The notes beneath the pieces are model-generated. The model was not told the origin of the DNA, did no database searches, and saw only the letters and a list, made by a program, of their open reading frames with translations. The translations under genes were made by a program, and so were the position numbers. Positions 16,958 through 36,110 of a stretch of DNA of 43,523 nt are shown in pieces. Origin of the DNA: a virus; IMG/VR virus record IMGVR_UViG_3300042936_000932, positions 1 to 43,523 of that record; one strand, given 5' to 3'. Numbering within the stretch: the stretch's first letter is position 1; each line of letters opens with the position of its first letter.

Positions 16958-17476
16958 TTACGCTGCACACGTGCCAGCTAGACACCTGAATGGTGAGACG
17001 CACGGAGGGCTACAAGAGGCAAACCTAGGTGGGAAGAATGGTGGGAAGAATGGTGGGAAGAATGGGAACCTAGGTGGGAAGAACGGTGGGAAGAACGGTG
17101 GAAAGAATGGCGGGAAGAATGGCGGGAAGAATGGCGGGAAGAATGGCGGGAAGAATGGCGGGAAGAATGGCGGGGTAGTTATAACTGTATCAGAATACTC
17201 AGACCACTCACTCAACCCAACAGCATTTTGTGCACGAACACGATATGCCTGTGAGGTAGATCCTTCTTGAGCAACTAGAACCGATGTCCCAGCTGTGCTT
17301 CCACTTTTAGCGTCGTTGCTTTCCCAGTAATAAAGAGTTATGGGACTTCCTCCATCATGTGGGGCTATCCAACTAACGGTATCTTGATTAACTTGCAAAG
17401 TTATAGTTGGTGCAACTGGTGGTCGTGGGACAAAGGGACCGATAGCCCCAAAAAGTGCACCTAGAACACCAGCCAT
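16958..17476 (-). CDS. FN3 domain protein with (PPFF)n repeats and Cys-rich C-terminus
   Basis: A 172-residue protein. Residues 1-20 are hydrophobic (MAGVLGALFGAIGPF). Residues ~18-102 form a fibronectin type III domain (APTITLQVNQDTVSWIAPHD ... YRVRAQNAVGLSEWSEYSDT). Residues ~103-152 are about twelve FFPP units interrupted by PRF. The last ~20 residues contain four cysteines (CSPPC, then FRC and GTC). It is paralogous to the FN3-PPFF part of the Hint-domain protein at 28147-29424 but lacks the Hint domain. It overlaps the upstream fibre gene by one base. A role as an adsorption accessory is inferred from neighbours. Confidence 0.75.
   Translation of the reverse strand: MAGVLGALFGAIGPFVPRPPVAPTITLQVNQDTVSWIAPHDGGSPITLYYWESNDAKSGSTAGTSVLVAQEGSTSQAYRVRAQNAVGLSEWSEYSDTVITTPPFFPPFFPPFFPPFFPPFFPPFFPPFFPPFFPPRFPFFPPFFPPFFPPRFASCSPPCVSPFRCLAGTCAA
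17022..17173 (-). repeat. 12-bp tandem repeat encoding FFPP
   Basis: On the plus strand, about twelve copies of GGTGGGAAGAAT (variants GGCGGGAAGAAT and GGTGGGAAGAAC), with two interruptions containing AACCTAGGT. Neighbouring units are identical, so recent copy-number change by slippage is likely. Confidence 0.9.
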
Positions 17477-18507
17477 TAGGTCAATCCATTACCAGAGGCT
17501 ATCCACGTAGTTGCTTCTACTTTTACAATTGTTGCTATTCCGTAAGCTGCTAAAGTCCTGGTGCCCGTAGTAGCGGTTCCAGCAAGCCTGAGAGTATCAG
17601 TTGTAATTGCAATAGAGCTGGTTAGGTTTGCATTTATAATAGCAATGGTTGTTCCAATTTCAAACGGTACTGAAGAATTATCTGGAATAGTAATTGTCTG
17701 ACTTGAACCAGTTACATAAATGTGTTCACCTGCGTGAGCCTTGCTTAAAGTTAATCCGCCAGAGGCAAGTAGTACTTGTGGCATCCCAATATGGCCAACC
17801 GATGACGCTGTGTTAGTATTTGCGGATGGCTCAGCTGCCAAAAGACCAGACTTTGCATTAATCTGGGTCTGAATCGAGGATGTTACTCCATCTAAATATC
17901 CGATCTCGGTGTCAGACACATTTGTAACTTTGTCCTGCTTATTACCAAGAGCTGTAGTAACTGTTGATGCAAAGCTGGCATCGTCATTGATTGCAGCTGC
18001 AAGCTCGTTTAGTGTGTCTAGAGCACCAGGAGCTGAGTCAATTAGGTTGCTTACTGCAGTAGATACGAAAGCTGTGGTTGCAACTTGTGTAGTGTTTGTT
18101 CCTGCTGTTGCTGTTGGAGCAGTAGGGGTGCCAGTAAGTGCAGGCGAAGCTAAAGGAGCCTTGTTATTTAACTGAGTCTGGATTGCTGAGGTAACTCCAT
18201 TAAGATATCCAATTTCAGCATCCGATACGTCAGTAACCTTGTCTTGTTTTGTTGATAGATCTACAGTTGCCCAGCTAGCAGCCGTACCATTTGTAGTTAA
18301 AAATTTGCCAGAATTGCTTGTTTGAACTGGAAGTGCCTTGTCAGCAATTGACGTTAAGGAGTTCCAAGCAGTGGTTCCGTCGCCAACTTTAATAACATTA
18401 GCATCATAGGCAACTCCAATTTCACCAACAGCCAAAATGGGGTTTGCAGTAGACCATTGGCTGGCAGTTCCACGTCTTTGAATCATTCTATATAGTGAGG
18501 TTGCCAT
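17476..18507 (-). CDS. Tail fibre / receptor-binding protein
   Basis: A 343-residue protein. The N-terminus (RRGTASQWSTANPILAVGEI, then DGTTAWNSL) is the small attachment domain found at the start of many phage fibres. The middle carries repeats KQDKVTDVSDAEIGYLNGVT and KQDKVTNVSDTEIGYLDGVT with SAIQTQLNNK, a trimeric coiled-coil shaft, and LTGTPTAPTATAGTNTTQVA. The C-terminal ~75 residues (ITIPDNSSVPFEIGTTIAII ... TWIASGNGL) resemble the ends of the proteins at 36118-36747 and 29437-31521. The start lies six bases after a TAAAAT box. It overlaps the FN3-PPFF gene. Confidence 0.85.
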   Translation of the reverse strand: MATSLYRMIQRRGTASQWSTANPILAVGEIGVAYDANVIKVGDGTTAWNSLTSIADKALPVQTSNSGKFLTTNGTAASWATVDLSTKQDKVTDVSDAEIGYLNGVTSAIQTQLNNKAPLASPALTGTPTAPTATAGTNTTQVATTAFVSTAVSNLIDSAPGALDTLNELAAAINDDASFASTVTTALGNKQDKVTNVSDTEIGYLDGVTSSIQTQINAKSGLLAAEPSANTNTASSVGHIGMPQVLLASGGLTLSKAHAGEHIYVTGSSQTITIPDNSSVPFEIGTTIAIINANLTSSIAITTDTLRLAGTATTGTRTLAAYGIATIVKVEATTWIASGNGLT

Positions 18508-18522: not shown

Positions 18523-18552
18523 TATGATTATTCTATTTATCAGTTTTAGCTA

Positions 18553-18561
18553 TGATACAAT
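18553..18561 (+). promoter_or_regulatory. Extended -10 promoter for plus-strand oxygenase
   Basis: TGATACAAT, 17 bases before the GTG at 18579 with an AAGGAGG site between. Its position rules out the upstream ATG at 18552. Confidence 0.45.
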
Positions 18562-18578
18562 TAATTAAGGAGGTTTTT

Positions 18579-19220
18579 GTGTCAGTTCAGGTTATAGACA
18601 GCTTTATTTCAGATAATGAGGCTAAGGCTATTATTGAAGCCTTATCCCCGCATTTGGTGGCTAGTCAGAGATTTGCCATGGCAGAAACCCAGTTTGAAGA
18701 TTATATGAAAATCTTGAAGAGTATCTATGATGGCAAATCAATATTTGAAAACGAAGAACATTCTGAAGCTGGGCTCTTATTTACAGAAACAATAAATAGA
18801 GTTGCCAAGGAAATTGGTACATTTTATGGAGTAGACGTTGTTCCGATAAACCCAATGCTTGCTGAAATATCTGAGGGTGGTCAAAATGAGGGATTACATT
18901 GTGACTCTGTTCAGCTAGATGGAAGTCCTTGGGATGATGGAAATACCGCTTTAGAGGACCTTGAATTTTCAGCATTGGTTTACTTAAATACCTCTGGAAT
19001 TGACTATGATGGTGGATCAATATACTTCCCAAATCAAGAGCTAGACCTCAGGCCAAAGGCTGGACAGTTGATATTTTTTCGAGGAGATATAGACCATCCT
19101 CACGGAGTTTCCATGGTAACTTCTGGAAATAGGTATACCTTAGTACTATTCTATGGACGCTCTGATCGTGTTAAAGCTTATTTGCAGTATAAAGCTGGGG
19201 AGCCAATGGGGGAACGTTAG
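18579..19220 (+). CDS. 2OG-Fe(II) dioxygenase, prolyl-4-hydroxylase type
   Basis: A 213-residue double-stranded beta-helix oxygenase. Iron ligands H107-x-D109 (LHCDSV) and H175 (HPHGVSMV) and the 2-oxoglutarate-binding R185 (+10, SGNRYT) are all present. The strand YDGGSIYFPNQELDLRPKAG between them is typical of the P4H family. GTG start with AAGGAGG five bases away. It is the only P4H-like enzyme of the cluster on the plus strand and leads a four-gene plus-strand group. The family hydroxylates proline or other residues using 2-oxoglutarate and O2; the substrate here is unknown. Confidence 0.85.
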   Translation: MSVQVIDSFISDNEAKAIIEALSPHLVASQRFAMAETQFEDYMKILKSIYDGKSIFENEEHSEAGLLFTETINRVAKEIGTFYGVDVVPINPMLAEISEGGQNEGLHCDSVQLDGSPWDDGNTALEDLEFSALVYLNTSGIDYDGGSIYFPNQELDLRPKAGQLIFFRGDIDHPHGVSMVTSGNRYTLVLFYGRSDRVKAYLQYKAGEPMGER

Positions 19221-19250
19221 GCCCGTAAATTTTACAAAAACTACCCCTTA

Positions 19251-19259
19251 TGATATAAT
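19251..19259 (+). promoter_or_regulatory. Extended -10 promoter
   Basis: TGATATAAT (TG-N-TATAAT) 35 bases before the ATG at 19295, in the gap after the oxygenase. Confidence 0.45.
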
Positions 19260-19294
19260 ATTTAAACCAAATTTTTAAAAGATAGGATATAGCA

Positions 19295-19480
19295 ATGAAT
19301 AAAAATAAAGTAGTAGAAAAAATGGTTGCAATTGCAGAAGAATACAATATTTTGGCAATACAAGGGGCTGGGATGCCAGAGGACCAGATTGAGCAGATGA
19401 TTAATCAGGTTAGGCCTCAGCTCTATACAATTCAGGGTGAGATTTATGATTACCTTCTTTCCCAAGGAATAATTAAATAA
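19295..19480 (+). CDS. Small helical protein, unknown
   Basis: A 61-residue, mainly alpha-helical protein (KVVEKMVAIAEEYNILAIQG, then DQIEQMINQVRPQLYTIQGE). No family recognised. It has an upstream extended -10 box and is followed after 3 bases by the cupin gene. Confidence 0.6.
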   Translation: MNKNKVVEKMVAIAEEYNILAIQGAGMPEDQIEQMINQVRPQLYTIQGEIYDYLLSQGIIK

Positions 19481-19483
19481 ACT

Positions 19484-20065
19484 ATGAAGGAAGTCTGGGC
19501 TGAAGCCAAACTAAATAAAAAAATTTTACTTTTTGAAAACTTCCAAATTCCAGAAATTACATGGGAAGACGTTATGTCTTTTGTATATGAATTATCCAAA
19601 ATTGAAGCTGATGAAAATTTAAAACAGAGGGCAGCTAGATCTTTTGGCGGCAACGCCTCTCTCTTCGGTAGCGTGATATTTAAAGACGGCTACTTTCTTT
19701 TTGAGGAGAGCTATCTTTTTCCAATGTTTAAAGGTATTGCCAGACTTATGGAAAAAGTTAATGGAGGCAATAGCGGAGAAAAATGTGACTATTATGCTAG
19801 CCATAGCTCATGTAGCTGTGGCGGACAATGGCACATACAAGCCCTTAGAGTTTCAATAGGTGAATATGGTGTTTCCAACCATAATGATCCTAATGACGTG
19901 CTTTATTGGCAAGTACTGGGAAACTCTCAATGGACAATGAATGATAATGTTGAGTATATTTTGAAACCAGGAGATCTTTTGTACTTTAACCAAGAAGACG
20001 TTCACAGAGTTTTTCAAGATGGTCCCAGAGCTGGGATTATCATTGATGGCCCTAGAACATTATAA
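19484..20065 (+). CDS. Cupin / JmjC-like 2OG oxygenase-fold protein
   Basis: A 193-residue protein. The C-terminal half has the JmjC/cupin pattern: H133-x-D135 (SNHNDPNDVLYWQVLG), SQWTM strand, the turn LKPGDLLYFN, and H174 (EDVHRVFQDGPRAGIIIDGP). This supports a metal-binding double-stranded beta helix, probably 2OG-dependent. Residues 101-112 carry a small Cys cluster (CDYYASHSSCSC). It differs from the P4H-like proteins of the cluster in order and spacing. The ribosome binding site is weak and the gene is probably coupled to the 61-codon gene before it. Confidence 0.7.
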   Translation: MKEVWAEAKLNKKILLFENFQIPEITWEDVMSFVYELSKIEADENLKQRAARSFGGNASLFGSVIFKDGYFLFEESYLFPMFKGIARLMEKVNGGNSGEKCDYYASHSSCSCGGQWHIQALRVSIGEYGVSNHNDPNDVLYWQVLGNSQWTMNDNVEYILKPGDLLYFNQEDVHRVFQDGPRAGIIIDGPRTL

Positions 20066-20074
20066 ATAACTAAT

Positions 20075-20269
20075 ATGAAGGACAATATGGAATTTAAATA
20101 CCGTGCTACCCCAGACTTTGCTCTAGATTTTTACAAGGAAAATGGACAAGAAATATCTTTTGACGTAGACTTATTTAACGCTACACTAATGATAGAAGCT
20201 GCTGATGAAGATACCGCAGATAAAATTAGAATGACAATTACTGACATTAGAATGTGGGAAAAGATTTAG
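20075..20269 (+). CDS. Small hypothetical protein
   Basis: A 64-residue acidic protein (FALDFYKENGQEISFDVDLF, LMIEAADEDTADKIRMTITD). No family recognised. An internal ATG at 20087 follows AAGGA closely, so a 60-residue version is possible. It ends one base from the convergent minus-strand oxygenase gene, with no terminator between. Confidence 0.55.
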   Translation: MKDNMEFKYRATPDFALDFYKENGQEISFDVDLFNATLMIEAADEDTADKIRMTITDIRMWEKI

Positions 20270-20270
20270 T

Positions 20271-20837
20271 TTAATTAAATAATTCTTTTTTTAATTTTGC
20301 TGGTTCGTCTTTTGTTCCATAGACAAAAGCTGTTGAAAAATACCTAGACCTGTTTCCAACAACTGGCCTAGATCCATGCAGGATGTTTCCTCCGTGAATA
20401 TATAGGGAATTTTCTTTTGGCTTAATGACTAGACCTATATCTTCATAGTCTAGCTCACCACCCAGATAGTCGTCGTTGTAGTACAATAGTACGCCATACG
20501 AAACGTATAGTGGTGTAGCTACATTCCAAACATCCTTATGATATTTTATGCTTTGCCCTGGCTCGTATCTCTGTAAACAGGTGTTATCTGGATACATAGA
20601 AAAGGACTCAAAAAGATCTTTTATCTTTTTATTAATAACAGGAAATATTGTATCCCCCTCAAAATCGATGGTTTTGCCATACCAAAAGTTTGCTTGATCC
20701 TGGTTTAAAAATGTGTCTTCTGAAAACCAGTCTTGCTCAGAAATATTTTTAATTATTTCAAAAACTTCTTTTAGTTCTTGCTTTGTCAGAAAATCTGCAA
20801 CCTCATAAATATCTTCGTGGAGTTTTGTAATCTGCAT
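20271..20837 (-). CDS. 2OG-Fe(II) dioxygenase, prolyl-4-hydroxylase type
   Basis: A 188-residue oxygenase. Iron ligands H100-x-D102 (KYHKDVW) and H154 (NILHGSRPV); R163 (GNRSRYF) is placed to bind 2-oxoglutarate. It also has the YNDDYLGGELDYEDIGLVIK strand pair characteristic of the family. It is the last gene of a minus-strand run of six starting at 24464, 4 bases after the SDR gene. Substrate unknown. Confidence 0.85.
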   Translation of the reverse strand: MQITKLHEDIYEVADFLTKQELKEVFEIIKNISEQDWFSEDTFLNQDQANFWYGKTIDFEGDTIFPVINKKIKDLFESFSMYPDNTCLQRYEPGQSIKYHKDVWNVATPLYVSYGVLLYYNDDYLGGELDYEDIGLVIKPKENSLYIHGGNILHGSRPVVGNRSRYFSTAFVYGTKDEPAKLKKELFN

Positions 20838-20841
20838 ACTA

Positions 20842-21510
20842 TCACATATACTTACTATTAAAGATATTGCTAACCTCTAGATGGTTAACATTAAAATGTT
20901 TTGGCAAAGAGGCTACCCAGCGAATAGCCTCTGCCATATCTTCTGCCGTTAATGAATATGGCTTACTCTCTTCTTGGGTATCGATGGTTCCTGGACAAAT
21001 TTCTGTCACCTTAATTCCGTATTCTGGAAATTCCATTCTCATGGTATCTACTAGGGCCATCTCGCCCCTCTTGGCATTGCTGTAGTTTCCTCCGCCACGA
21101 AAGGGAACCTTTCCAGATAAGGAGGTGACAAAAATGATAGTAGGAGATTCCGATCTTTTAAGAGCTGGCACAAAAAGCTGGGAGAGATACATTGGACCAG
21201 AAACGTTTATCTCGTAGGCAGTCTTAAAGTTATCCATTGTCTCATTGATAATACTTGTTGGACTAGCTCCGCCACCTGCATTATTAACAAGAAGATCTAT
21301 GGTTAAGTCGCCATATTTTTCAAAGAATAGTTCAATTTGTTTTGGCTGGGTAATATCTAGCCTGTATGTTTCAACATTTTCAGACTCTAGCTGTGAGACC
21401 CTTGATAGATCTCTGGATACGGCAATAACCCTATACCCATTTTCAGATAGGAGCTTTACTGTTGCATATCCAACACCCTTACTTGCACCAGTTACTATAG
21501 CAGTTTTCAT
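20842..21510 (-). CDS. Short-chain dehydrogenase/reductase
   Basis: A 222-residue classical SDR: Rossmann motif TGASKGVG (residues 7-14), NNAG (76-79), catalytic S130, Y143 and K147 (YSNAK), and PGTIDT after the sheet. The family uses NAD(P)(H) to interconvert alcohols and ketones. It overlaps the upstream oxygenase gene by four bases (ATGA), so it is coupled to it. In this context it could act on the same substrate as the dioxygenases, for example oxidising a newly made hydroxyl or carrying out sugar chemistry. This is an inference; SDRs occur as auxiliary metabolic genes in other phages. Confidence 0.9.
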   Translation of the reverse strand: MKTAIVTGASKGVGYATVKLLSENGYRVIAVSRDLSRVSQLESENVETYRLDITQPKQIELFFEKYGDLTIDLLVNNAGGGASPTSIINETMDNFKTAYEINVSGPMYLSQLFVPALKRSESPTIIFVTSLSGKVPFRGGGNYSNAKRGEMALVDTMRMEFPEYGIKVTEICPGTIDTQEESKPYSLTAEDMAEAIRWVASLPKHFNVNHLEVSNIFNSKYM

Positions 21511-22358
21511 AGGCCCAACAGCACAATCTCTTTTTTATAGTATTCTTCAAACTCTACCCAAAATGGAATATTATTTGTTATCTCTACGTTATTACTGTCT
21601 CTGTTGAACTTAAGTCTTTTTTCTTCTAACTCCCGCCAAAGATCCTCTCCGTACTTTTCTTGAAGCTTTAGCCAAAGAGGGTGTCCAGGGTAATCGTATC
21701 TCCAATAATTTCTAATTATATACTTTTCCCCATTAGACACTGCCTTTACTCCGTGATAGTGTGGTGGGCCAGATGGAAATACAACAATGTCTCCAGCCGA
21801 TGGCTTATAAGAGTAATCTTCTTTTATAACTGATCGATCGTTTTTATCAAGGAATCGGAACATAACATCTCCACCATCATAATCTTCATTTAGATAGAAA
21901 ACAGCAGTAAGTCCGAACTTTAATCCAGGATTATAAGCAAATTCTCTCTGAAAGTCTGTGTGGTGCATCATAACATAGTCTTTGTGCTTTTCTAAATTTG
22001 GAACATATTTAGCAATATTCCATCCATCAACAGACCAATTATCTAAAACAAAATTATTACTTTCTGCATAAAGTTTTGTAGCGTAATAAAACAAATCATC
22101 TATTTGGTTTGCAAAATAGTCTTTACCGCCAATGGCTATGTCAGAGTAAGGCTTTGACTCTTCCCACTCTTCTGTAGTTGGAAATTTTTTAAAGGTTACG
22201 GCTGGCCATCCAGGCCCTTCTGACATTTTGCCAAACGTGTACCAGTCTTGCCATTCTTGATTACCTTCAAAATATTCTACAAAATCTTTAGGATTTTTTA
22301 TAGCACCTTTAAAGACCCAAACTAAATCATTTATTTTTTGAATTTCAAAATTATACAC
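21507..22358 (-). CDS. 2OG-Fe(II) dioxygenase, prolyl-4-hydroxylase type, with C-terminal extension
   Basis: A 283-residue oxygenase. Iron ligands H133-x-D135 (MMHHTDFQ) and H202 (PHYHGVKAV), with K212 at +10 (GEKYIIRNYW) in the 2OG-carboxylate position, as Lys does in animal collagen prolyl-4-hydroxylases. Core strand YNEDYDGGDVMFR-like (LNEDYDGGDVMF). About 65 residues after the core are charged and helical (LWLKLQEKYGEDLWRELEEK), longer than in its neighbours. It overlaps both adjacent genes. Confidence 0.85.
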   Translation of the reverse strand: MYNFEIQKINDLVWVFKGAIKNPKDFVEYFEGNQEWQDWYTFGKMSEGPGWPAVTFKKFPTTEEWEESKPYSDIAIGGKDYFANQIDDLFYYATKLYAESNNFVLDNWSVDGWNIAKYVPNLEKHKDYVMMHHTDFQREFAYNPGLKFGLTAVFYLNEDYDGGDVMFRFLDKNDRSVIKEDYSYKPSAGDIVVFPSGPPHYHGVKAVSNGEKYIIRNYWRYDYPGHPLWLKLQEKYGEDLWRELEEKRLKFNRDSNNVEITNNIPFWVEFEEYYKKEIVLLGL

Positions 22359-23052
22359 TGCATCCCTTTTTCATATCCATATCATTGTGAATCCAGTGGC
22401 TAGGAACCATATACTTTACCCCAGATTTTACTGTGTGTGCAATGTGATAGTATGGTGCTGAGGATGGAAATATAATAACACTTCCAGCACTAGGCTTTAC
22501 CCCAAAGTCTATTTGGTTATTTGCTACGGCAACCCCATAGTCTAGGTCTGGGCTAACCACCTGATTGTGGTCTTCATAATCAGACAGCTTAAAGGAGATT
22601 TCTCCCCCTTCTGGAACCTCATTGAGATACATGACAAGAGAATACCTCAATGTCTTGTCTCCGTCTAGCTGGTCATAGTGGGCCCCCATGGATGCCCCAG
22701 TATTATATCTTTTAATATTAAAGACTGGGAATAGCCTTGGCTCATCATGATCCCCAACCGACTCAGCATAGTCTTTGGAAACAGCATAAAGTGCCTTCAT
22801 AATGTTAATATAAACATACTCCATCTTACTTCTGTATGGCTCTGACATTTGATTAATTTGAGCAAGGTCAAATGTTTGTGTCTCTCCATAAATAAAATCT
22901 TTATCGTCTGAAGCTGTCCAAGTATCCCAAAGCCTACCATTTTCTGCACTATTTATTTCAGCAAGTTCAGAAATAGTTTTCATTACTTCTTCAAAATTTT
23001 CAATAGCGTCCTCGTAGTAGTAGACCTTTTCGTGCAATATATTTTTTTTCAT
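22351..23052 (-). CDS. 2OG-Fe(II) dioxygenase, prolyl-4-hydroxylase type
   Basis: A 233-residue oxygenase. Iron ligands H125-x-D127 (GAHYDQLDG) and H203 (APYYHIAHTV), with K213 (SGVKYMVPSHW) at +10. A loop insertion of ~25 residues (DHNQVVSPDLDYGVAVANNQ) separates core strands. The ATG at 23052 is preferred because it begins two bases after the upstream stop and follows AGG; ATGs at 23082 and 23073 would overlap the upstream gene by up to 29 bases. Coupled to the next gene by an eight-base overlap. Confidence 0.85.
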   Translation of the reverse strand: MKKNILHEKVYYYEDAIENFEEVMKTISELAEINSAENGRLWDTWTASDDKDFIYGETQTFDLAQINQMSEPYRSKMEYVYINIMKALYAVSKDYAESVGDHDEPRLFPVFNIKRYNTGASMGAHYDQLDGDKTLRYSLVMYLNEVPEGGEISFKLSDYEDHNQVVSPDLDYGVAVANNQIDFGVKPSAGSVIIFPSSAPYYHIAHTVKSGVKYMVPSHWIHNDMDMKKGCSV

Positions 23053-23053
23053 G

Positions 23054-23713
23054 TTAATACCTATTCTTTTCATAATGGTCAATTTCTTTTATAAAGCCAA
23101 CCAAAACATAGCGAATTGGACCTTCTGATACAGCCTCTACGCCATGTTCGTACTTTTCGTTACCTGGAAAAATTAACAAAGTTTTTGGTTTAGGCCTTAG
23201 CTTTATGTCTAGATTTTTAAAAAATAGCTCTCCATTAACATAGTCATCATTTATGTATAGAATAGCTGCATAAGATATTGAGGGATCTGTACGATTATCT
23301 GTATGAGACTTTAGGTCTACCCCTGGTTGCATTCTTTGTATTGTAGCTAGTCCACTAAGCTCTAAATTAGACTCAGTTTTTAGAGTTAGGCTATTTAGCC
23401 TTTCATAAAAAACACGATACTCTTGAGAATCACTAACGTTTAAGTTTTTATCATTCCAGTTTTGAGTAATCTCAAACTTTCCTTCAGAAACCAGATTATC
23501 AACGTCTTCCCTGCCAAACTTTTGAAGACAGAAACGTTTTAAATTTGAGGTATACTCTACTTCCCAATCTTCTTGTGTTGCTGAACCTATTCTATTCCAA
23601 ATAAAGTCTAGCTCTTCATCTGTAAGAAAGTTTTCAATAGAAATAAGCTCGTCTGTAATTTCTGTAAACAGAATATCATTTTCTTTAAATATTTCTTTTA
23701 GCTTTTCAATCAT
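23054..23713 (-). CDS. 2OG-Fe(II) dioxygenase, prolyl-4-hydroxylase type
   Basis: A 219-residue oxygenase. Iron ligands H137-x-D139 (LKSHTDNRTD) and H190 (EKYEHGVEAV); R201 (GPIRYVLVGF) at +11. Strand INDDYVNGELFFKNLDIKLR replaces the usual GG with NG. The N-terminal 100 residues are helical and longer than in the shortest family members. Overlaps the upstream oxygenase by eight bases. Confidence 0.85.
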   Translation of the reverse strand: MIEKLKEIFKENDILFTEITDELISIENFLTDEELDFIWNRIGSATQEDWEVEYTSNLKRFCLQKFGREDVDNLVSEGKFEITQNWNDKNLNVSDSQEYRVFYERLNSLTLKTESNLELSGLATIQRMQPGVDLKSHTDNRTDPSISYAAILYINDDYVNGELFFKNLDIKLRPKPKTLLIFPGNEKYEHGVEAVSEGPIRYVLVGFIKEIDHYEKNRY

Positions 23714-24464
23714 CTAAATCGCCATTCATCTTATAAGGATTGCCGTCTAGATCTAGCTTATATCCATCTTTAAGCAAATCTTGCCATTCTTTTTTTTCTA
23801 CTTCTTGAGACTCTCTAATTTTTTTCATTTCTTCTACCCAGGCATCTCGGACTTCTTGTGGGTAAGCGTCTTCAGTGCGATCGTCCCAAAAAGAACCTAT
23901 GGTATATCTAACGCCAGACTCTATTAGAGTTACTTCGTGCATATTATTAAATCCACCATCGAATGCCGCCAGCATTCCAACCTTTGGAGATATCTCTAAG
24001 TCTTGTTTAGGAAACTTTAAAGTTCCACCAGAAAAATCATCATTTAAATAAAGAAATGCTGCATATCTACTTCTTGCAAATGGTCCAGAGTTTCCGTGTT
24101 CGTCTGTGTTGTCAGAGTGTACTCTAGCATATGCTCCTGGCTCCCACTTCTGAGTGTGATAGCCTATCTCTACTATTGTGGCTGGATCTAGGTCATGGAC
24201 AGAGGCTACTGCTTCAACTATTTTAGCTTTAATTTGTTCAAAAATGTCTGATGGCAATCCAGCTTTTTCTATTTCTGGATCTCCTTTTTGTGGCAAAACC
24301 GAAGAGTAGGATTCATAAAAAGAAATTGGCATCCAGGTAATTGTGCCATTGTCGGCAACTGAGTCTAGCACTGAAATAATCTTTGAAGAATCTTCTGAGC
24401 TTAAAAAGTTTTCGTAGACCACAAGATCTTTTGTTAGCCTGTTTTTGTTATTTAAGTTTACCAT
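23706..24464 (-). CDS. 2OG-Fe(II) dioxygenase, prolyl-4-hydroxylase type
   Basis: A 252-residue oxygenase. Iron ligands H116-x-D118 (ARVHSDNTD) and H176 (NNMHEVTLI), R186 (SGVRYTIGSFW) at +10. Core strand LNDDFSGGTLKFPKQDLEIS. The last 60 residues are charged and probably helical (VRDAWVEEMKKIRESQEVEK). It begins a new minus-strand transcription unit: an extended -10 box lies upstream, with GGGAG between box and ATG. Confidence 0.87.
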   Translation of the reverse strand: MVNLNNKNRLTKDLVVYENFLSSEDSSKIISVLDSVADNGTITWMPISFYESYSSVLPQKGDPEIEKAGLPSDIFEQIKAKIVEAVASVHDLDPATIVEIGYHTQKWEPGAYARVHSDNTDEHGNSGPFARSRYAAFLYLNDDFSGGTLKFPKQDLEISPKVGMLAAFDGGFNNMHEVTLIESGVRYTIGSFWDDRTEDAYPQEVRDAWVEEMKKIRESQEVEKKEWQDLLKDGYKLDLDGNPYKMNGDLDD

Positions 24465-24483
24465 ATAAAGATTCTCCCTTAAA

Positions 24484-24492
24484 ATTATACCA
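24484..24492 (-). promoter_or_regulatory. Extended -10 promoter for the downstream oxygenase group
   Basis: TGGTATAAT on the minus strand overlapping the stop region of the upstream oxygenase, 19 bases before the ATG at 24464, with a GGGAG site in between. Confidence 0.5.
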
Positions 24493-25165
24493 CGACTTGG
24501 GGCTTTTCCTGGTGACGCAAGATTGTCCAGAAGAATGGAACGGTATACCTAATTCCAGACTTTATCTCTGTTACCCCGTGAATATAGTTTTTATCTCCAG
24601 GGAAGAAATAGGCTGCCCCAGCTTTTGGTTTGAACTGAATGCCCTGGTTTGGAAAGTATAACTCTCCGCCCTCATAGTCATCATTTATATAGAAAAGTCC
24701 AGCTAGATCGTAGTATGGAAAATCATTAGGCTTGCCAGCATCTGGACCAGTATGCAACTCTTTATCTGCATGTGGCATTTGTAGCTGTCCAGGAAGCCAT
24801 CTGACCATAGCTGGGCTAGTAGGATCGGCATCAACGCCAAAGAACTTGTCCACCTCAATCTTTAGTCTTCGAACCATTTTTTCTATAATAACTGGGACTT
24901 CAAGGCTACCTTTTTGAATTGTTGGATAAGTCGCAACACGATTTGCCCAGTAGTCTGCATCGTAAGTCACTGTGCCGTTTTCGTTGTGATGAGTTTCTGT
25001 AACATCCCAGTTAGTATTACTTCTAATAAAATCATTTAGCTTTGACAATTCTTCTTCAGTCATAAAGTTTTCAAGTGCTACGATGTTATCTGGAGAATCT
25101 CCAAAAAACCCAGATGGTGTTATTGACACTCTCTCTACAAAGTGATTATTTCTTAAATCTTCCAT
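24485..25165 (-). CDS. 2OG-Fe(II) dioxygenase, prolyl-4-hydroxylase type
   Basis: A 226-residue oxygenase. Iron ligands H132-x-D134 (MPHADKELH) and H196 (YIHGVTEI), R206 (SGIRYTVPFFW) at +10. Core strand INDDYEGGELYFPNQGIQFK is a near-consensus P4H segment. ATG preceded by AGGAG. It follows the unknown gene at 25178 by 12 bases. Confidence 0.87.
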   Translation of the reverse strand: MEDLRNNHFVERVSITPSGFFGDSPDNIVALENFMTEEELSKLNDFIRSNTNWDVTETHHNENGTVTYDADYWANRVATYPTIQKGSLEVPVIIEKMVRRLKIEVDKFFGVDADPTSPAMVRWLPGQLQMPHADKELHTGPDAGKPNDFPYYDLAGLFYINDDYEGGELYFPNQGIQFKPKAGAAYFFPGDKNYIHGVTEIKSGIRYTVPFFWTILRHQEKPQVVV

Positions 25166-25177
25166 AAAAACATTCTC

Positions 25178-25903
25178 CTATTCGTACTTTCGTTTTTCCC
25201 AAACATCTTTTAAGTATACGCCACCATCTGGAACCCTATACTTTTCAGAGTTTTTCATATTCTTTTTCATGATAGATATTCCAGATTCTTTAAGATACTC
25301 AGATGTCCAATCTTCTCTCTTGAATGGCATCATTTGCATATAAGGAGTTCCTGCTGGAAGAATCCCTACCCAATCTTTTACAACAAAGAATGGCATAGTC
25401 CCTGGAAGATTTACCTTATCATTGTCAATTATACCGCTAGTTGTTAAAAATGGTAGGTCGTACCTGTCATAAGGCTGAGAGTATAAAACGCTGTATCCTT
25501 CTGGCACCTCTACCGCCCAGTCTGGATACCAAGCAAAATGTTTTTCGTGATAACCCAGAGGGCCATCAAACTGAGGCATCTTTTCTCTATTTTGAATAAA
25601 ATCTGCATATTTTGGATCTAAAACTTTAGCAGAAATTTTTTGATTTGAGTCAAGGAAGAACTCAATATCGCAAGGGGTTTTATAAACGTATCCAGTAGTC
25701 AGGATGTCATACATTGCTGGGCAAGCTTTCCAGGTTGGAACCTTTCCACCATCTGGACCAACATAATTTTCTCCATGTGGGTTTTTGTAAAACCTATCTG
25801 CAGAAATATACCACTCTGGCAAACTTTTTGATGTGGGCTTTGGGGCAGAGGCATCATCTTCAGAAAGCCATCCCTTATTTGTTACAAACTTAATCTTTGG
25901 CAT
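25178..25903 (-). CDS. Conserved phage protein of unknown function
   Basis: A 241-residue protein. Visible conserved-looking blocks are TSKSLPEWYISADRFYKNP near the N-terminus, CPAMYDILTTGYVYKTPCDI, then a centre HFAWYPDWAVEVPEGYSVLY followed by YDRYDLPFLTTSGIIDND, and PAGTPYMQMMPFKREDW. The pattern 'egySvLy..P..R.DLPF...sGiID.D' resembles uncharacterised proteins encoded near oxygenases in other large phages. The make-up (short beta strands joined by Gly/Pro turns) suggests a beta-sandwich or cupin-like fold. Overlaps the upstream gene by 14 bases. No catalytic motif can be asserted. Confidence 0.7.
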   Translation of the reverse strand: MPKIKFVTNKGWLSEDDASAPKPTSKSLPEWYISADRFYKNPHGENYVGPDGGKVPTWKACPAMYDILTTGYVYKTPCDIEFFLDSNQKISAKVLDPKYADFIQNREKMPQFDGPLGYHEKHFAWYPDWAVEVPEGYSVLYSQPYDRYDLPFLTTSGIIDNDKVNLPGTMPFFVVKDWVGILPAGTPYMQMMPFKREDWTSEYLKESGISIMKKNMKNSEKYRVPDGGVYLKDVWEKRKYE

Positions 25904-26609
25904 TATCTTTTACTTTCATCAAAATTTTCTTAGCTTCGTGATATCCAGCTGGGCATCCATTATGATCAACTGCGTCTCTATAAAAGTGTGTCCACTCTCC
26001 CTTAGAGTTCATTACCTGGCTAGCCTCTCCTCTTTTAATCATGTTTTGTTGCCACTCTTGTGTTTCATATTCTGGCCTACCGCTTTTAATCTCTAGCTCA
26101 TTTTCCTGGATATCCGATAGGGATATTGGCAAGATAGCTGCAATCGGAGTATTGGCTGGAATAGTTATCTCAATGTTTGGCTCAGTAATCATCCAAGCAA
26201 TCGGAAAATCATTTGCCAACACTGATGTGCTGATTAGGGTAGTTATGCACTGTGCCCCTCTAATAAACTGATTTGGCACTGGCATTGTCAGTAGCGTCAG
26301 GTTTTCTTCATTTTCACCAACAAAAACAATGTCAGTATGAAAACTAACCGTCCTGTTTCCACGAAGTGACATCGCATACTTTTCTCCCGATAATATTTTT
26401 ACATGATCTGCGGTTGAATCGTTTATACCATCCCATATAAAAACTATGTCTTCTGGATAGGATATTCCCCAACCCAGTCTATTTGATAATGACATTGGAA
26501 AGCATTGATAGGCATGTCTATCAAACGTTATGTCCATCCAGTCACGGTGCATAGGTAGCTGATCAACACGTGCTAACTTACCCTGAGTATAGGCAAAAAC
26601 TTTTTTCAC
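25890..26609 (-). CDS. Conserved protein of unknown function, DUF6065-like
   Basis: A 239-residue protein with a GTG start overlapping the upstream TAG (TAGTG) and preceded by GGAAG. Blocks LPMHRDWMDITFDRHAYQCF, PMSLSNRLGWGISYPEDIVF, and FPIAWMITEPNIEITIPANT followed by PIAAILPIS resemble the DUF6065 pattern (RdWMD..., lNaLGWei, fP..W...P.v...GePfa.i.P). I recall this only in outline, so the family name is tentative. The central part aligns loosely with its neighbour (both have a 'PaGTP/PANTP ... iPi/mPF' turn), hinting at a related fold. Confidence 0.6.
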   Translation of the reverse strand: MKKVFAYTQGKLARVDQLPMHRDWMDITFDRHAYQCFPMSLSNRLGWGISYPEDIVFIWDGINDSTADHVKILSGEKYAMSLRGNRTVSFHTDIVFVGENEENLTLLTMPVPNQFIRGAQCITTLISTSVLANDFPIAWMITEPNIEITIPANTPIAAILPISLSDIQENELEIKSGRPEYETQEWQQNMIKRGEASQVMNSKGEWTHFYRDAVDHNGCPAGYHEAKKILMKVKDNAKD

Positions 26610-27331
26610 TAGCTTCCAGTTTCTTCATAAAACTTTGGATTGTGATATTTATCCGAATAGTCAATCATTGTAACAATCGAATGCTTTATCCCAGACTCAA
26701 CTGGCAAAGACTTGTGGGGATACATAAAGTTAGATGGAAAAATAAACAAGTCTCCAGCCCTAGGCTTTGCCTTTATGCCCTGCAACCTAAACTCCAACTC
26801 TCCACCAACATAGTCATCGTTAGGATATGCAACCAAGGACACTACGCAGTTATAAGAATACCCGTGGTCTGTGTGCTCTTGAAAGTGTTGTCCTGGACCA
26901 TATTTGACAAAGTTCATTGCCTCCCAGTATCTTAACTCTCCAACATTAAAATTTCTTGAGTAATGCTTTACTGCTGAAAGCTTTCTATCATAAAGGTCTT
27001 GCCATAACTGTTGAAGTTTTTGTGAGCTTGGGGATGGATCATTCATAATATCTGTTTTCTTAAACTTGAAATCATAGCAATCCCTATACTCTGGCATTTT
27101 CATTCCATAGCCAACCATGGCTTCCATGTAGTTATAGTAGTTTGACGGGTCATTAAGAACCTCTTCAAGCCTTTCTACAATATTCATATCTTTTGGCAAT
27201 ACGTCGTGATATACGAAAATTCCAGGAGCTAGCTGCTCTACTGACGACCAGGACTCTTGCCCAATGTTGTAGTATTCTTGAATTCTATTGTGTGTTTCTA
27301 AGATGTCTTCTTTTATGCTGTTATCGTTCAT
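26609..27331 (-). CDS. 2OG-Fe(II) dioxygenase, prolyl-4-hydroxylase type
   Basis: A 240-residue oxygenase. Iron ligands H153-x-D155 (FQEHTDHGYS) and H206 (MYPHKSLPV), K216 (SGIKHSIVTMIDYSD) at +10. It is a close paralogue of the upstream gene: both share NFVKY.G.G.HF..H.DHG and the C-terminal MTDY/MIDY ending. Together they form a subfamily distinct from the other seven. Confidence 0.85.
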   Translation of the reverse strand: MNDNSIKEDILETHNRIQEYYNIGQESWSSVEQLAPGIFVYHDVLPKDMNIVERLEEVLNDPSNYYNYMEAMVGYGMKMPEYRDCYDFKFKKTDIMNDPSPSSQKLQQLWQDLYDRKLSAVKHYSRNFNVGELRYWEAMNFVKYGPGQHFQEHTDHGYSYNCVVSLVAYPNDDYVGGELEFRLQGIKAKPRAGDLFIFPSNFMYPHKSLPVESGIKHSIVTMIDYSDKYHNPKFYEETGS

Positions 27332-27342
27332 TTTTTTACCAA

Positions 27343-28086
27343 TCAGTATGTTAGTTTATTTTGATCTTCTTCTCTATACGGGAAGTACCGAAGTCCACCA
27401 CGGCTATTGTAGTCTGTCATTACAACTACGGAATATTTTGTACCGCTCTTCATTGGCAAGGAAGCATGTTCATAGACATAAGTCGATGGGAAAACAACAA
27501 TATCCCCCTGCTTTGGTTTAATGGTTAGGTCAAATCTTGGGAAATATATTTCTCCGCCCTCATAGTCATCATTTAGGTATGCTACCACGGATACTGTAGT
27601 TACGTATGCGGGACCGTGGTCAGCATGGATATTAAAATGTTTTCCAGCACCCTCGTACTTTACAAAATTAAAAGCTTCATAATAAGAGATGCCAACACCC
27701 CAGTATTTTCCATAGTCTTGAACATTTGGATGAATTGCATCAAATGTAATTTGATGGATATCGTAGAAATCTGAGTTTTCTTCATTTCTAGGGCCATAGC
27801 TGTTGCTACTAATCTTAAAGTCAACGCAGTCTCTGGCGTCAGTGCTTACAGAGTCTGATTCAGTAACCATTGCTCCCTGCCACCTGTACATCTGGCTAGA
27901 ACTATTTGTTAGCCTTGATTCTAAGGTTTTTATAATTTTTTCAGAGTTTTCTGGGGAGATTGCATTGTTGTATAGATTTATACCCATTGCTGGATTCGAA
28001 ACAACTACGCCTTCGACAGTAGTCCTGTCTGGCATTCTATTTTTATCTGTTTCTGATCTATCTTTTGTTAACCATTCATTATTCAT
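27343..28086 (-). CDS. 2OG-Fe(II) dioxygenase, prolyl-4-hydroxylase type
   Basis: A 247-residue oxygenase. Iron ligands H154-x-D156 (FNIHADHGPA) and H207 (YVYEHASLPM), K217 (SGTKYSVVVMTDYNS) at +10. Core strand LNDDYEGGEIYFPRFDLTIK. First gene of the minus-strand oxygenase operon. The ATG at 28086 lies six bases after an extended -10 box, giving a leaderless mRNA; an ATG at 28104 is upstream of the box and is rejected. Confidence 0.87.
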   Translation of the reverse strand: MNNEWLTKDRSETDKNRMPDRTTVEGVVVSNPAMGINLYNNAISPENSEKIIKTLESRLTNSSSQMYRWQGAMVTESDSVSTDARDCVDFKISSNSYGPRNEENSDFYDIHQITFDAIHPNVQDYGKYWGVGISYYEAFNFVKYEGAGKHFNIHADHGPAYVTTVSVVAYLNDDYEGGEIYFPRFDLTIKPKQGDIVVFPSTYVYEHASLPMKSGTKYSVVVMTDYNSRGGLRYFPYREEDQNKLTY

Positions 28087-28092
28087 AAACAA

Positions 28093-28101
28093 ATTATAGC
28101 A
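28093..28101 (-). promoter_or_regulatory. Leaderless extended -10 promoter for oxygenase operon
   Basis: TGCTATAAT on the minus strand, exactly six bases before the ATG at 28086. Confidence 0.55.
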
Positions 28102-28146
28102 CACCTGCCCACAAGGATCAAGCCCCGCCCCTGGCTTTGAGAAAAA

Positions 28147-29424
28147 CTATTTATTATGAACTAGGTATCCACCAGCTACGAACCAGTCTTGTGGCTCGCA
28201 GGCAATTAGATAGGTCATTTCTGGTATCTCTACTTCGTGAAGTGTTTCAATAACTTCTTCTCCATAAGTTCCGTTTTCTAAGACCTTTATCAAAATGTCT
28301 CCAACAACCAGCTCTAGGGTTGGCAATATCTTGTATAGTCCATCTCTCTTAACGTATATGGTTTGAGTTATTGAAAACTTTGCAGACTCGTTATTGTTAA
28401 AGTATCTACACGGAGACATCTTTGGAGCTAAGTCTGTAATTTCAGTCTCAACAACTTCTCCGAATGTAAGAGTTTCTGATGACCAAGCAAACATAGATGG
28501 CTTATCATCTCCAGGAGAAGTATCTGTGTTTTCTGCTAGTAAAGGAACAAGAATCTTGTCTCTAAGAACAACATCTTTTGCTGGAATCTCGCCTCTAGCT
28601 GTTCTAACCAAGGTGTCTTCATGTATACACCAAGCGTGGAACCTAGGAAACCTTGGTGGAAAAAATGGAAAGAACGGAAAGAACGGTGGGAAGAACGGGA
28701 ACCTGGGTGGAAAGAATGGAAAGAATGGAGGAAAGAACGGAAAAAACGGTGGGAAAAATGGAAAGAACGGTGGGAAGAACGGAAAGAACGGTGGGAAAAA
28801 TGGCGGAGTAGTCGTAATTTCTCCAGAATATGGAGACCATGCTCCTGGGCCATTTACGTTTTCTGCACGGACACGATACTTTTGAACAGTTGATCCTTCT
28901 TGAGTAACAGTAACAGATGTTCCAGTAGTGGTATTGGTTTTAGGAGTTGCACCATCTAGTTCGAGACTTTCCCATCTGTATAGAGTAATTGCACTCCCAC
29001 CACTAGCGGGAGCAACCCAACTAACTATATCTTGAAGTGCATTTGGAGAAGAGGCAGTTGGTGCAGCTGGTGTTGCAGGCACAGTTGTTACTGCTACTGT
29101 AGTTGTTAAAGATTCTGGAGATGTTCCTGCAGCGTCTGTTACAGTTACACTTACAGTATAGGTTGTTGAAGATCTAAGGGTTTCTACTATGATTGGGGAG
29201 GTGGCTCCTGTAGCTGTTCTGGTTGTCTCCCCAGCTGCAACGGCAGTTACTGTAAATGAAATTGCTGCAGGAGAACCTGCTGGTAATTCAAAAGATACTG
29301 AAGCCGCTCCATCATCAAATGCCCTGCTTGTTCCAACATTTGTGGCAACTACGTTTATGGGGGCGGGGGAACTTAAAAAGTCATTTTGTTGTGATGACCT
29401 TCCTCCCGATTCTTTCTTTGCCAT
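28147..29424 (-). CDS. Tail-associated FN3-(PPFF)n-Hint protein
   Basis: A 425-residue protein. Residues ~15-105 and ~107-205 are two fibronectin type III domains. Residues ~206-262 are repeats of FFPPFFP with PRF interruptions. From Cys266 (AWCIHEDTLVRTARGEIPAK) to the end is a Hedgehog/intein (Hint) domain. It ends YLVHNK, so the usual C-terminal His-Asn is followed by a single Lys. The block-B His of the TxxH motif seems absent (ITQTIYVKRDG). The N-terminal part is paralogous to the protein at 16958-17476. Hint domains cleave or transfer at their first Cys, so processing could release or attach the FN3-PPFF part. The gene follows the fibre gene by 12 bases. Confidence 0.8.
   Translation of the reverse strand: MAKKESGGRSSQQNDFLSSPAPINVVATNVGTSRAFDDGAASVSFELPAGSPAAISFTVTAVAAGETTRTATGATSPIIVETLRSSTTYTVSVTVTDAAGTSPESLTTTVAVTTVPATPAAPTASSPNALQDIVSWVAPASGGSAITLYRWESLELDGATPKTNTTTGTSVTVTQEGSTVQKYRVRAENVNGPGAWSPYSGEITTTPPFFPPFFPFFPPFFPFFPPFFPFFPPFFPFFPPRFPFFPPFFPFFPFFPPRFPRFHAWCIHEDTLVRTARGEIPAKDVVLRDKILVPLLAENTDTSPGDDKPSMFAWSSETLTFGEVVETEITDLAPKMSPCRYFNNNESAKFSITQTIYVKRDGLYKILPTLELVVGDILIKVLENGTYGEEVIETLHEVEIPEMTYLIACEPQDWFVAGGYLVHNK
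28641..28806 (-). repeat. 21-bp tandem repeat encoding FFPPFFP
   Basis: On the plus strand, units of GGTGGGAAGAACGGAAAGAA (21 bp with the next C) repeat about seven times with variants. They belong to the same G/A-rich family as the 12-bp repeat at 17022-17173, but the unit is 7 codons instead of 4. Confidence 0.85.
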
Positions 29425-35216: not shown

Positions 35217-36110
35217 TCAGACTGCGTTGCAGGATATTGTTGTTGAGCTGCTGGATATTAGGTTACCAGTACATGCGTCATATACTTTTGTTGTTCTAAT
35301 TCTTGTTTTTTTAGACCCACACCCACCGTAAGTAATAACAGTATTTGTCTTACACCTTGAATCTCTATCTAAATACGTAGTACAATCTGTGTTTTGACAA
35401 GTTCTTGCTCTTTGCTCTTTATTGGTATCGCTTGGAACAGTGCTCCATGGTGACCAGGAACCGCATACCGCTTGGCAGCAAGCCGTATACTGTGTATAAG
35501 AAAATGTACTGCAATCTTTGTTAGTTCCTGATACTGTCCTCTCTTTTGTTCCAGATGAGCTAAGTGCAAAGGCTGCATTGCAAACGCTGTATGCTCCATA
35601 ATTTGTTGTTGCTGTGCATGTAGTTGGTGGAGTAACATAACCACAACTACCGTCTACATAGGCACTAGGAGTACTAATAACTCTATCAGTACAATTATTA
35701 TCATAAGACGTTGTTGTTACCCCAGTAATGTTGTTTGTTACAGTTATTGTTTTTCTACGTTTGGTTATTTTGTTTGCATAAACAGTCAGCTTACCCTCGC
35801 ATGAAGCTGTGGCTGCAGATTCTTCTCCATAAGTTTCACATGGCCCTGTCGTTATTGTATCTGCAATAAAGTTTCCAAAGTTTACAAGAATTGGTGTTTC
35901 GTAGTCTACCAAAGTTCCTGCAGCTGGTTGCTGAGATAGGGCTTTGCCACCTTGTAAAGAATTGTTTGTAGCAATTAGTCCAGAAAGACTATCGAGAGTT
36001 AGCCCTGAAGATGCCAGTTGGGTTGTTACCGTGCCACTAGTAAGTCCTGAAAAATCAGGAACAGCAACCATTCCTTTAGATGAGCCATACCTAGCAACAA
36101 AACCTAACAT
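35217..36110 (-). CDS. PASTA plus cysteine-rich thrombospondin-type-1-like protein
   Basis: A 297-residue protein. Residues ~14-80 form a PASTA domain (VAVPDFSGLTSGTVTTQLAS ... ALSQQPAAGTLVDYETPILV), a module that binds peptidoglycan or beta-lactams in bacterial kinases and PBPs. The rest has about 24 cysteines. It includes CGSWSPWSTVPSDTNKEQRA followed by RTCQNTDC, which matches the WxxW...R...R.C...C core of thrombospondin type 1 repeats. A second related repeat is NYGAYSVCNAAFALSSSGTK with ERTVSGTNKDC. The cysteines would form disulfides outside the cell. Its place among fibre genes suggests a virion adsorption protein. ATG preceded by AGGAT. Confidence 0.75.
   Translation of the reverse strand: MLGFVARYGSSKGMVAVPDFSGLTSGTVTTQLASSGLTLDSLSGLIATNNSLQGGKALSQQPAAGTLVDYETPILVNFGNFIADTITTGPCETYGEESAATASCEGKLTVYANKITKRRKTITVTNNITGVTTTSYDNNCTDRVISTPSAYVDGSCGYVTPPTTCTATTNYGAYSVCNAAFALSSSGTKERTVSGTNKDCSTFSYTQYTACCQAVCGSWSPWSTVPSDTNKEQRARTCQNTDCTTYLDRDSRCKTNTVITYGGCGSKKTRIRTTKVYDACTGNLISSSSTTISCNAV

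Follow-up and report, generated by a model that had tools for sequence, protein, structure and literature searches.

A recurrent phage operon of prolyl 4-hydroxylase-like genes and a Phe-Pro-repeat protein as its predicted substrate

Introduction

What use does a phage make of nine prolyl 4-hydroxylase (P4H)-like enzymes encoded side by side? The question is raised by virus record IMGVR_UViG_3300042936_000932, a single record of 43,523 bases (the window, by which the whole stretch is meant), in which nine genes for P4H-type 2-oxoglutarate-Fe(II) (2OG) oxygenases are packed within 9.5 kb of the late structural region. Aquatic phages often encode P4H-like 2OG oxygenases: one of the nine enzymes, P4H i, matches 267 phage records and, according to the Phold study, human EGLN3 is the human protein most matched by phage proteins (PMC12774648). 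In the words of a 2022 study, the viral use of prolyl 4-hydroxylase 'remains cryptic', and the same study notes the presence of collagen in tail fibres; hydroxyproline evidence in viral proteins is the subject of a title in its reference list (PMC9301287). The first-pass annotation of the window had read the island as a modification system for virion proteins or their glycans, a reading that genomic context strongly supports but that is too broad, since the likely substrate is a fibronectin type III (FN3) protein with a Phe-Pro repeat. Proteins with (FFPP)n runs flank both ends of the island, a feature that had been overlooked. We propose, as a prediction that is likely though well short of certain, that the island P4Hs hydroxylate proline, and perhaps phenylalanine, in the Phe-Pro repeats of a tail protein, forming a dedicated virion-protein modification operon whose product is sometimes glycosylated later.

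Results

Nine old paralogues with intact active sites

The nine genes (P4H a to i, Table 1) give matches to PF13640 above the family cut-off, and none contains an internal stop; when whole proteins are scanned against Pfam, eight remain above the cut-off and P4H b falls narrowly below it (26.4 against 27 bits). The HxD motif and the distal His are invariant in all nine and are followed by a Lys or Arg at +10 or +11, so that the intact iron triads of the first-pass annotation stand, as does its division into four Lys enzymes (c, d, h and i) and five Arg enzymes. Its limits for the island lie within 27 bases of the open reading frame bounds, 18552-28104. The cupin/JmjC-like tenth gene and the short-chain dehydrogenase/reductase (SDR) that it listed are also present, members of the SDR cluster being found in 26 island loci, the window counted; the two proteins that it left as unknown are there too and are now matched to phrog_7084 (U) and DUF6065 (D).

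The P4Hs share 20-26% identity with the first row of their alignment and are too diverged to be recent copies. In a quick tree of 152 P4Hs from 18 sources, which carries a long-branch warning and has 40 of its 149 inner branches open, each window P4H groups with sequences of other phages and not with its neighbours. Recent tandem duplication, which phylogeny had been expected to separate from independent gain, is rejected on these two grounds. As judged from sequence, the window P4Hs are old paralogues, and other phages have their orthologues. The earlier suggestion of several different substrates or sites holds in part: different substrates are not shown, and old paralogues fit different sites on one repeat protein equally well.

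The catalytic part of the window P4Hs is matched by PHROG families 274, 2297 and 3531, which bear the names 'DNA endonuclease V', 'DNA endonuclease' and 'ferrochelatase', and the last of these is also the annotation of P4H matches in cyanophages (KJ019099.1 and others); these families and genes are probably misnamed 2OG oxygenases.

A Phe-Pro-repeat protein at each end of the island

Protein Z1 consists of an FN3 domain, an (FFPP)n run and a Hint-like C-terminal part. Its run, residues 207-257 (nucleotides about 28654-28806), is 53% Phe and 45% Pro. Z2, at the other end, has a run at residues 102-150 (about 17027-17173) with 12 PP pairs, behind an FN3-like part whose fn3 match is below the cut-off (E 0.011). 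The codons of the Z1 run are mixed (TTT 13, TTC 14; CCG 9, CCA 12, CCT 1, CCC 1), which suggests selection acting on the protein. A DNA-level repeat artefact is ruled out by these mixed codons together with the FN3 domain lying upstream in frame; a plus-strand reading frame of GGKNGG type at 28394-28885 is the antisense frame of the run. Z1, first gene of the operon, is the probable substrate of the island P4Hs, and Z2 probably a second one.

Across loci, some of which overlap, 192 FFPP proteins were collected. Their runs are made mainly of FFPP, FFP, YFPP and HFPP units, Phe and Pro accounting for about 88% of the segment. Among the 181 that are complete at the C-terminus, 104 stop no more than 40 residues past the run and 68 extend over 100 residues further, 23 of these 68 ending in HNK. 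Hint-like C-terminal parts, some ending in HNK, stand behind the run in Z1 (28147-29424), L148:7712-9088 and L210:3-785 (L- and G-numbers are labels of the other loci and records compared). The likeness of Z1 lies in the motif only: Pfam and profile scans gave no Hint family match for it, and the matches come from the relatives L148 and L210, below the cut-off (best E 2.2e-5 and 0.017). Hint-like self-cleavage, if it occurs, would place the Phe-Pro run at the end of the protein.

The repeat proteins that flank the window's island are of the Phe-Pro and not of the collagen Gly-X-Y type. Collagen-like GPT repeats are apparent near P4H islands in L138:4244-9175, and antisense PVG/VGP frames are seen in L148, L151 and L156. 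The collagen-like GPT proteins of some relatives are possibly a second P4H substrate.

The P4H cluster and the repeat gene recur together and in one direction

A search of viral contigs with P4H h gave 334 relatives, from which 80 loci were kept, some from near-identical contigs. Every one of them holds at least three P4Hs, which argues that the clustering is not due to chance, and an FFPP gene is present in 73. Of the 74 FFPP genes with room downstream, 68 are followed by a same-strand P4H within 1.5 kb (63 within 200 bp); on the upstream side the figure is 2 of 55. This set was selected by a P4H, so a second one was fetched through the FFPP DNA pattern alone, comprising at least 119 loci that were all used for adjacency, the 80 listed ones being scanned with PF13640. 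Here, among the matches listed, a same-strand P4H follows within 1.5 kb in 61 of 88 cases (29 within 200 bp) and precedes in none of 64; PF13640 is present in 70 of the 80 listed records and at least three P4Hs in 51. Control records fetched with an arbitrary pattern, of which there were only 17 and shorter ones than the FFPP records (median 15.7 against 21.9 kb), hold PF13640 in seven cases and three or more P4Hs in none. When only records of at least 15 kb are considered, three or more P4Hs are found in 40 of 54 FFPP records and in 0 of 9 controls.

A third set was anchored on U, relatives of which are encoded in at least 591 viral-contig stretches. All 80 loci kept contain a P4H, with three or more in 78. 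Upstream room is available in 45 of them, and in 41 of these an FFPP gene is found at a distance of up to about 5.7 kb (up to 4 kb in 35); of the remaining four, three (L379, L382, L385) have a run of FFPxFCP type in an FN3 protein of the same sort. Outside the viral contigs, the FFPP pattern was found in 17 stretches of genome contigs, of which only L320, L324, L331 and L332, all on contigs of metagenome-assembled genomes, resemble phage proteins; L320, L324 and L332 also have P4Hs. On the evidence of these sequences the operon is widespread and spread over diverged phages. Single, dispersed P4Hs unlinked to fibre genes, the finding that the first-pass annotation had named as fatal to its reading, are the opposite of what is seen: related viral contigs keep P4H clusters beside the FFPP gene.

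Co-inheritance among relatives by the head protease

The head genes of the window include those for portal (10850), protease (9438) and major head protein (8303). Among 19 protease relatives, FFPP is found in exactly the five that have 8-13 P4Hs, the 14 others having 0-4. Three relatives with less than 18 kb on the island side (L040, L061, L079) were dropped from the protease tree and from the table of the remaining 16, worked out by hand, where FFPP is present in 5/5 records with 8-13 P4Hs and in 0/11 with 0-4. The tree forces at least three changes, and FFPP and P4H number change together in all three independent pairs, too few for significance (sign test, p 0.25).

The close relative L017, 87-92% identical to the window in portal, protease and major head protein, lacks the island. 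It keeps homologues of both FN3 proteins, the runs of which are of FSPFxAFGF type with neither PP pairs nor FFPP. Another close relative, L021, has glycosyltransferase-like genes (L021:3-614 and 633-1697) beside the tail-fibre gene, at the place of the window's island; one is of GT2 type by scan and the other GT61-like by eye, one unnamed scanned protein having matched GT61.

Core order and the partners D and U

The commonest order in related viral contigs is T, Z, P4H i, P4H h, D, U, P4H g, followed by P4Hs that vary from locus to locus, an SDR and other genes, so that the search for the same gene block that the first-pass annotation had called for finds its core recurring. A second arrangement is i-U-h-D-g, and some loci diverge further.

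The D profile matches U with a probability of 83%, and the two are probably related. The AlphaFold2 model of U (mean pLDDT 92.4) has 3ecy as its top Foldseek match (E 7.4e-4) and superposes on 2y8c with a VIA-align Z of 10.0 and a root-mean-square deviation (rmsd) of 2.9 over 122 of 241 residues, a moderate match on which U is assigned, by model, a dUTPase-like fold. A GIIDxD stretch with invariant Asp160 and Asp162 resembles dUTPase motif III. A sequence search found no solved relative of U. D and U could possibly be a scaffold, a repeat-binding subunit or a nucleotide enzyme.

Homologues of U were found in 49 haloarchaeal-virus records of the 50,697 phage records searched, with 23.7-30.4% identity among the 30 matches listed; no P4H is annotated within 6 kb of one of them, HSTV-2 gene 40. 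Z1 and D have no match in the 50,697 isolated-phage records at E 1e-5 with the low-complexity filter on.

The fold of P4H h

The double-stranded beta-helix fold of P4Hs is found in h by model and in the other eight by profile. The closest match of the AlphaFold2 model of h (mean pLDDT 92.4) is 3gze, a (Ser-Pro)5-bound P4H from an alga (VIA-align Z 20.5, rmsd 2.1, 175 residues, 21% identity); tied with it are a Trichoplax HIF hydroxylase (20.4) and the Pseudomonas P4H with EF-Tu (4iw3; 19.6), and human PHD2 comes next (19.4). The structure prediction asked of each enzyme, carried out for h alone, gives a model that matches peptide prolyl hydroxylases. Among PDB sequences the profile of the nine P4Hs finds a bacterial P4H, prolyl 3-hydroxylase 1, LH3 and a chlorovirus P4H.

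Glycosyltransferases, fusions and other accessory enzymes

Accessory proteins of other islands were sampled by picking 84, part of which, with a few others, made up the 68 that were scanned. Glycosyltransferases of PF11397 are present in L299, L123, L161 and L135 (E 1e-25 to 6e-22) and homologues of them in 12 loci, a P4H being present in 11; the two genes are 19-39 bp apart in L161, L299 and, by homology only, L156, L164 and L165. Pfam scans show no PF11397 gene in the window's island, and a sequence search found no solved relative of the L161 enzyme. Few of the 68 proteins match sugar-pathway families; two unnamed members match Sulfotransfer_2 and two the Collagen family. TauD-type oxygenases also occur in related islands.

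Fusions are found as well. In L269:5519-7057 a part resembling a glycosyltransferase (Gly_transf_sug, E 0.019, under the cut-off) precedes P4H i, L296:4769-6016 joins DUF6065 to a P4H, and L172 joins a P4H to a second P4H-like part in a less clear manner. A C-terminal domain that looks by eye like a sulfotransferase is fused to the P4Hs of L137:9763-11205, L129:3825-5240, L131:5008-6423 and L138:12810-14252; Pfam gives nothing for L137 at 0.01 and E 0.032 for the relative L294, and the sulfotransferase reading is not used as evidence. In an FFPP island a radical SAM/SPASM gene (L260:9171-10172) lies 44 bp from a P4H, as in pathways for ribosomally synthesized and post-translationally modified peptides.

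Neighbouring genes and host

Structural genes adjoin both Z proteins (Table 1), and a PASTA-domain protein (E 1.5e-6) is encoded at 35217-36110 of the structural region. The window protease resembles those of Streptomyces phages (39-40% full-length identity among the 20 matches listed of 139 records). Of the 35 related records that were searched, a good part of which are fragments, 20 contain a WhiB gene (PF02467); G023, G030, G033 and G035, all of them island records longer than 100 kb, contain two each. Applied to 14 control genomes, the WhiB profile matched only in Corynebacterium. The WhiB genes and the protease point to actinobacterial hosts, and the hosts are probably Actinobacteria.

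Table 1. Genes of the P4H island and its flanks in the window, with a homologue of U from another virus
Feature	Coordinates	Strand	Evidence
Z2, FN3-like + (FFPP)n, other island end	16958..17476	-	phrog_6977 minor tail protein, E 2.5e-5
Tail-fibre-like protein adjoining Z2	17476..18507	-	phrog_2631 tail fiber, E 2.6e-32
P4H a, accessory	18552..19220	+ (opposite strand)	PF13640; tree clade; Arg at +10
J, cupin/JmjC-like (JmjC_2), accessory	19484..20065	+	PF08007, 25.1 bits (cut-off 22)
P4H b, accessory	20271..20837	-	PF13640; tree clade; Arg at +9 and +11
S, SDR, accessory	20842..21510	-	PF00106, E 3.3e-39
P4H c, accessory	21507..22358	-	PF13640; tree clade; Lys at +10
P4H d, accessory	22351..23082	-	PF13640; tree clade; Lys at +10
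P4H e, accessory	23054..23713	-	PF13640; tree clade; Arg at +11
P4H f, accessory	23706..24464	-	PF13640; tree clade; Arg at +10
P4H g, core	24485..25165	-	PF13640; conserved place after D/U; Arg at +10
U, core	25178..25903	-	phrog_7084, E 6.7e-30; dUTPase/dCTP-deaminase-like fold (model)
D, core, DUF6065 protein	25890..26609	-	PF19541, E 2e-27
P4H h, core	26609..27331	-	PF13640; Lys at +10
P4H i, core	27343..28104	-	PF13640; next after Z in conserved operon; Lys at +10
Z1, FN3 + (FFPP)n + C-terminal Hint-like part ending HNK	28147..29424	-	fn3 PF00041, E 1e-6
T, structural protein upstream of Z1	29437..31521	-	phrog_30390 (unknown), E 8.6e-24; phrog_2647 head decoration, E 2.8e-17; several tail families
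U homologue, haloarchaeal tailed virus (L334)	NC_020159.1 28213-28893		

Discussion

The family of the enzymes, their active sites, the gene order, the co-occurrence with a repeat protein and the modelled fold of h lead to a model for the operon. The FN3-FFPP protein would be made with its P4Hs late in infection. The core enzymes i, h and g would hydroxylate the run, with proline as the modified residue, a step to which context and fold point, and D and U would assist them in an unspecified way. The accessory enzymes, a to f in the window and differing in number by phage, may hydroxylate further positions, possibly Phe, or other sites on the same protein, and in some phages sugars would be added to the hydroxyls. 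Carried in the virion, the modified run would be a hypermodified extensin- or collagen-like rod serving as a stiff or adhesive tail segment. The steps that follow proline hydroxylation are held with lower confidence. In its widest form, to which we give even chances, the proposal is of a self-contained hypermodification system, in which about 4-12 P4H paralogues hydroxylate many positions, in some lineages Phe too, with glycosylation or capping to follow, giving a rod that is rich in hydroxyproline, like extensin, and either adhesive or rigid. The phages concerned would be aquatic and widespread, with Actinobacteria as their probable hosts. Such a rod would, to our knowledge, be unlike any phage fibre described.

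Several systems resemble parts of this scheme. In extensin chemistry a plant or algal P4H acts on proline-rich repeat proteins, the hydroxyprolines of which are then glycosylated. Chlamydomonas P4H-1 (2jig/3gze), solved with a (Ser-Pro)5 peptide, has the same fold and active site as the phage enzymes; the phage island, however, has nine paralogues and its own repeat protein, with a run of Phe-Pro and not Ser-Pro. The collagen P4H of Paramecium bursaria Chlorella virus-1 (5c5t) is encoded by a virus and shares the fold of h (Z 17.6), but that virus is eukaryotic, and neither an FFPP operon nor a partner of the DUF6065 or phrog_7084 kind is known to us from it. In 6ax6, which we take to be the mimivirus enzyme, and in human LH3 a 2OG oxygenase is joined to a glycosyltransferase, as in the L269 fusion; both match the core enzyme h weakly in sequence (E 0.008-0.02), and they act on collagen Lys in a eukaryotic setting whereas the phage run is Phe-Pro. 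PF11397 is presumably the family of Gnt1, which adds GlcNAc to the hydroxyproline of Skp1. In the Dictyostelium Skp1 pathway the P4H PhyA acts first and Gnt1 then modifies the hydroxyproline (PMC3515798). That succession of P4H and glycosyltransferase is the point of likeness, whereas the pathway concerns one proline of a ubiquitin-ligase subunit and oxygen sensing in a protist. Cyanophage 2OG-Fe(II) oxygenases (PHROG 61) share superfamily and PHROG profiles with the window P4Hs; those of cyanophage S-H9-1 are dispersed in the one region read.

A number of observations weigh against the proposal. In the FFPP-pattern set, a same-strand P4H is missing from the 1.5 kb downstream of the repeat gene in 27 of the 88 cases with room, and ten of the 80 records show no PF13640; a P4H-specific profile made here finds a P4H in two of the ten (L218 and L256) and several of the genes concerned are at contig ends, but the contigs of L188 and L253 measure 36.8 and 38.4 kb. 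Phages commonly have a single P4H in the absence of FFPP, as the one or two in seven of the 17 control records indicate, the few and short controls themselves limit that comparison, and the supported co-changes number only three. L017 has one P4H-like gene in the region and no FFPP. The profile of the nine P4Hs also matches PiuC-type enzymes and enzymes that do not act on peptides, such as Tet-like DNA dioxygenases and PolD. Hydroxylation leaves the roles of DUF6065 and phrog_7084 unexplained, and the tail location of Z is drawn from weak family matches and neighbouring genes.

The oxygenases could instead act on small molecules, tailoring a sugar, lipid or nucleotide-linked block for a tail glycan, with the SDR, cupin and dUTPase-fold proteins in the pathway. 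The SDR and cupin genes of the window would fit, as would the fold and GIIDxD stretch of U, the match of both fold and sequence to PolD of Streptomyces cacaoi, and the glycosyltransferases of some islands and of the corresponding place in L021. Nevertheless, h resembles peptide prolyl hydroxylases most closely in fold, the steadiest partner of the P4Hs is a repeat protein and not sugar genes, and few of the 68 accessory proteins scanned belong to sugar-pathway families; we consider this explanation unlikely.

It is less probable still that the P4Hs are auxiliary metabolic genes, which would shift host 2-oxoglutarate or modify host proteins such as EF-Tu. Roles of this kind have been put forward for cyanophages, and a metabolic function is what the open-licence literature consulted assigns to phage 2OG oxygenases: they are proposed to modulate 2-oxoglutarate (PMC3037559), and the 24 2OG oxygenases of cyanophage S-SCSM1, spread over the genome by their open reading frame numbers, are read as host reprogramming (PMC9602691). 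The latter phage also sets a limit to the first-pass judgement that nine such genes are unusual. The Pseudomonas P4H with EF-Tu is indeed among the best fold matches of h; yet the window enzymes sit among structural genes, in a recurring order beside the FFPP gene, are old and distinct paralogues, and are absent together with FFPP in close relatives, traits that a drain on metabolism would not predict. A gene-exchange hot spot in the tail-fibre region, where P4Hs gather without acting on the neighbouring repeat protein, would account for the differences in accessory P4Hs and other genes between relatives and for the glycosyltransferase-like genes of L021 at that place, but it is hard to reconcile with a core Z-i-h-D-U-g order that recurs across diverged phages and with the directional adjacency of P4H and FFPP, and seems very improbable. 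Hydroxylation of the Phe-Pro repeat is the explanation that we retain as likely.

The P4H family and its action on repeat proteins are known, whereas the operon, the repeat protein, their setting and their spread appear undescribed, no description of a Phe-Pro-repeat phage protein or of a P4H-FFPP operon having been found in the searches made of the open-licence PMC literature. Phage prolyl hydroxylases gain in this way a candidate substrate that can be tested with a single small protein and two or three of the enzymes. If the proposal is true, prokaryotic viruses own hydroxyproline-rich structural proteins, which virome proteome searches would overlook unless +16 Da on Pro or Phe is allowed for.

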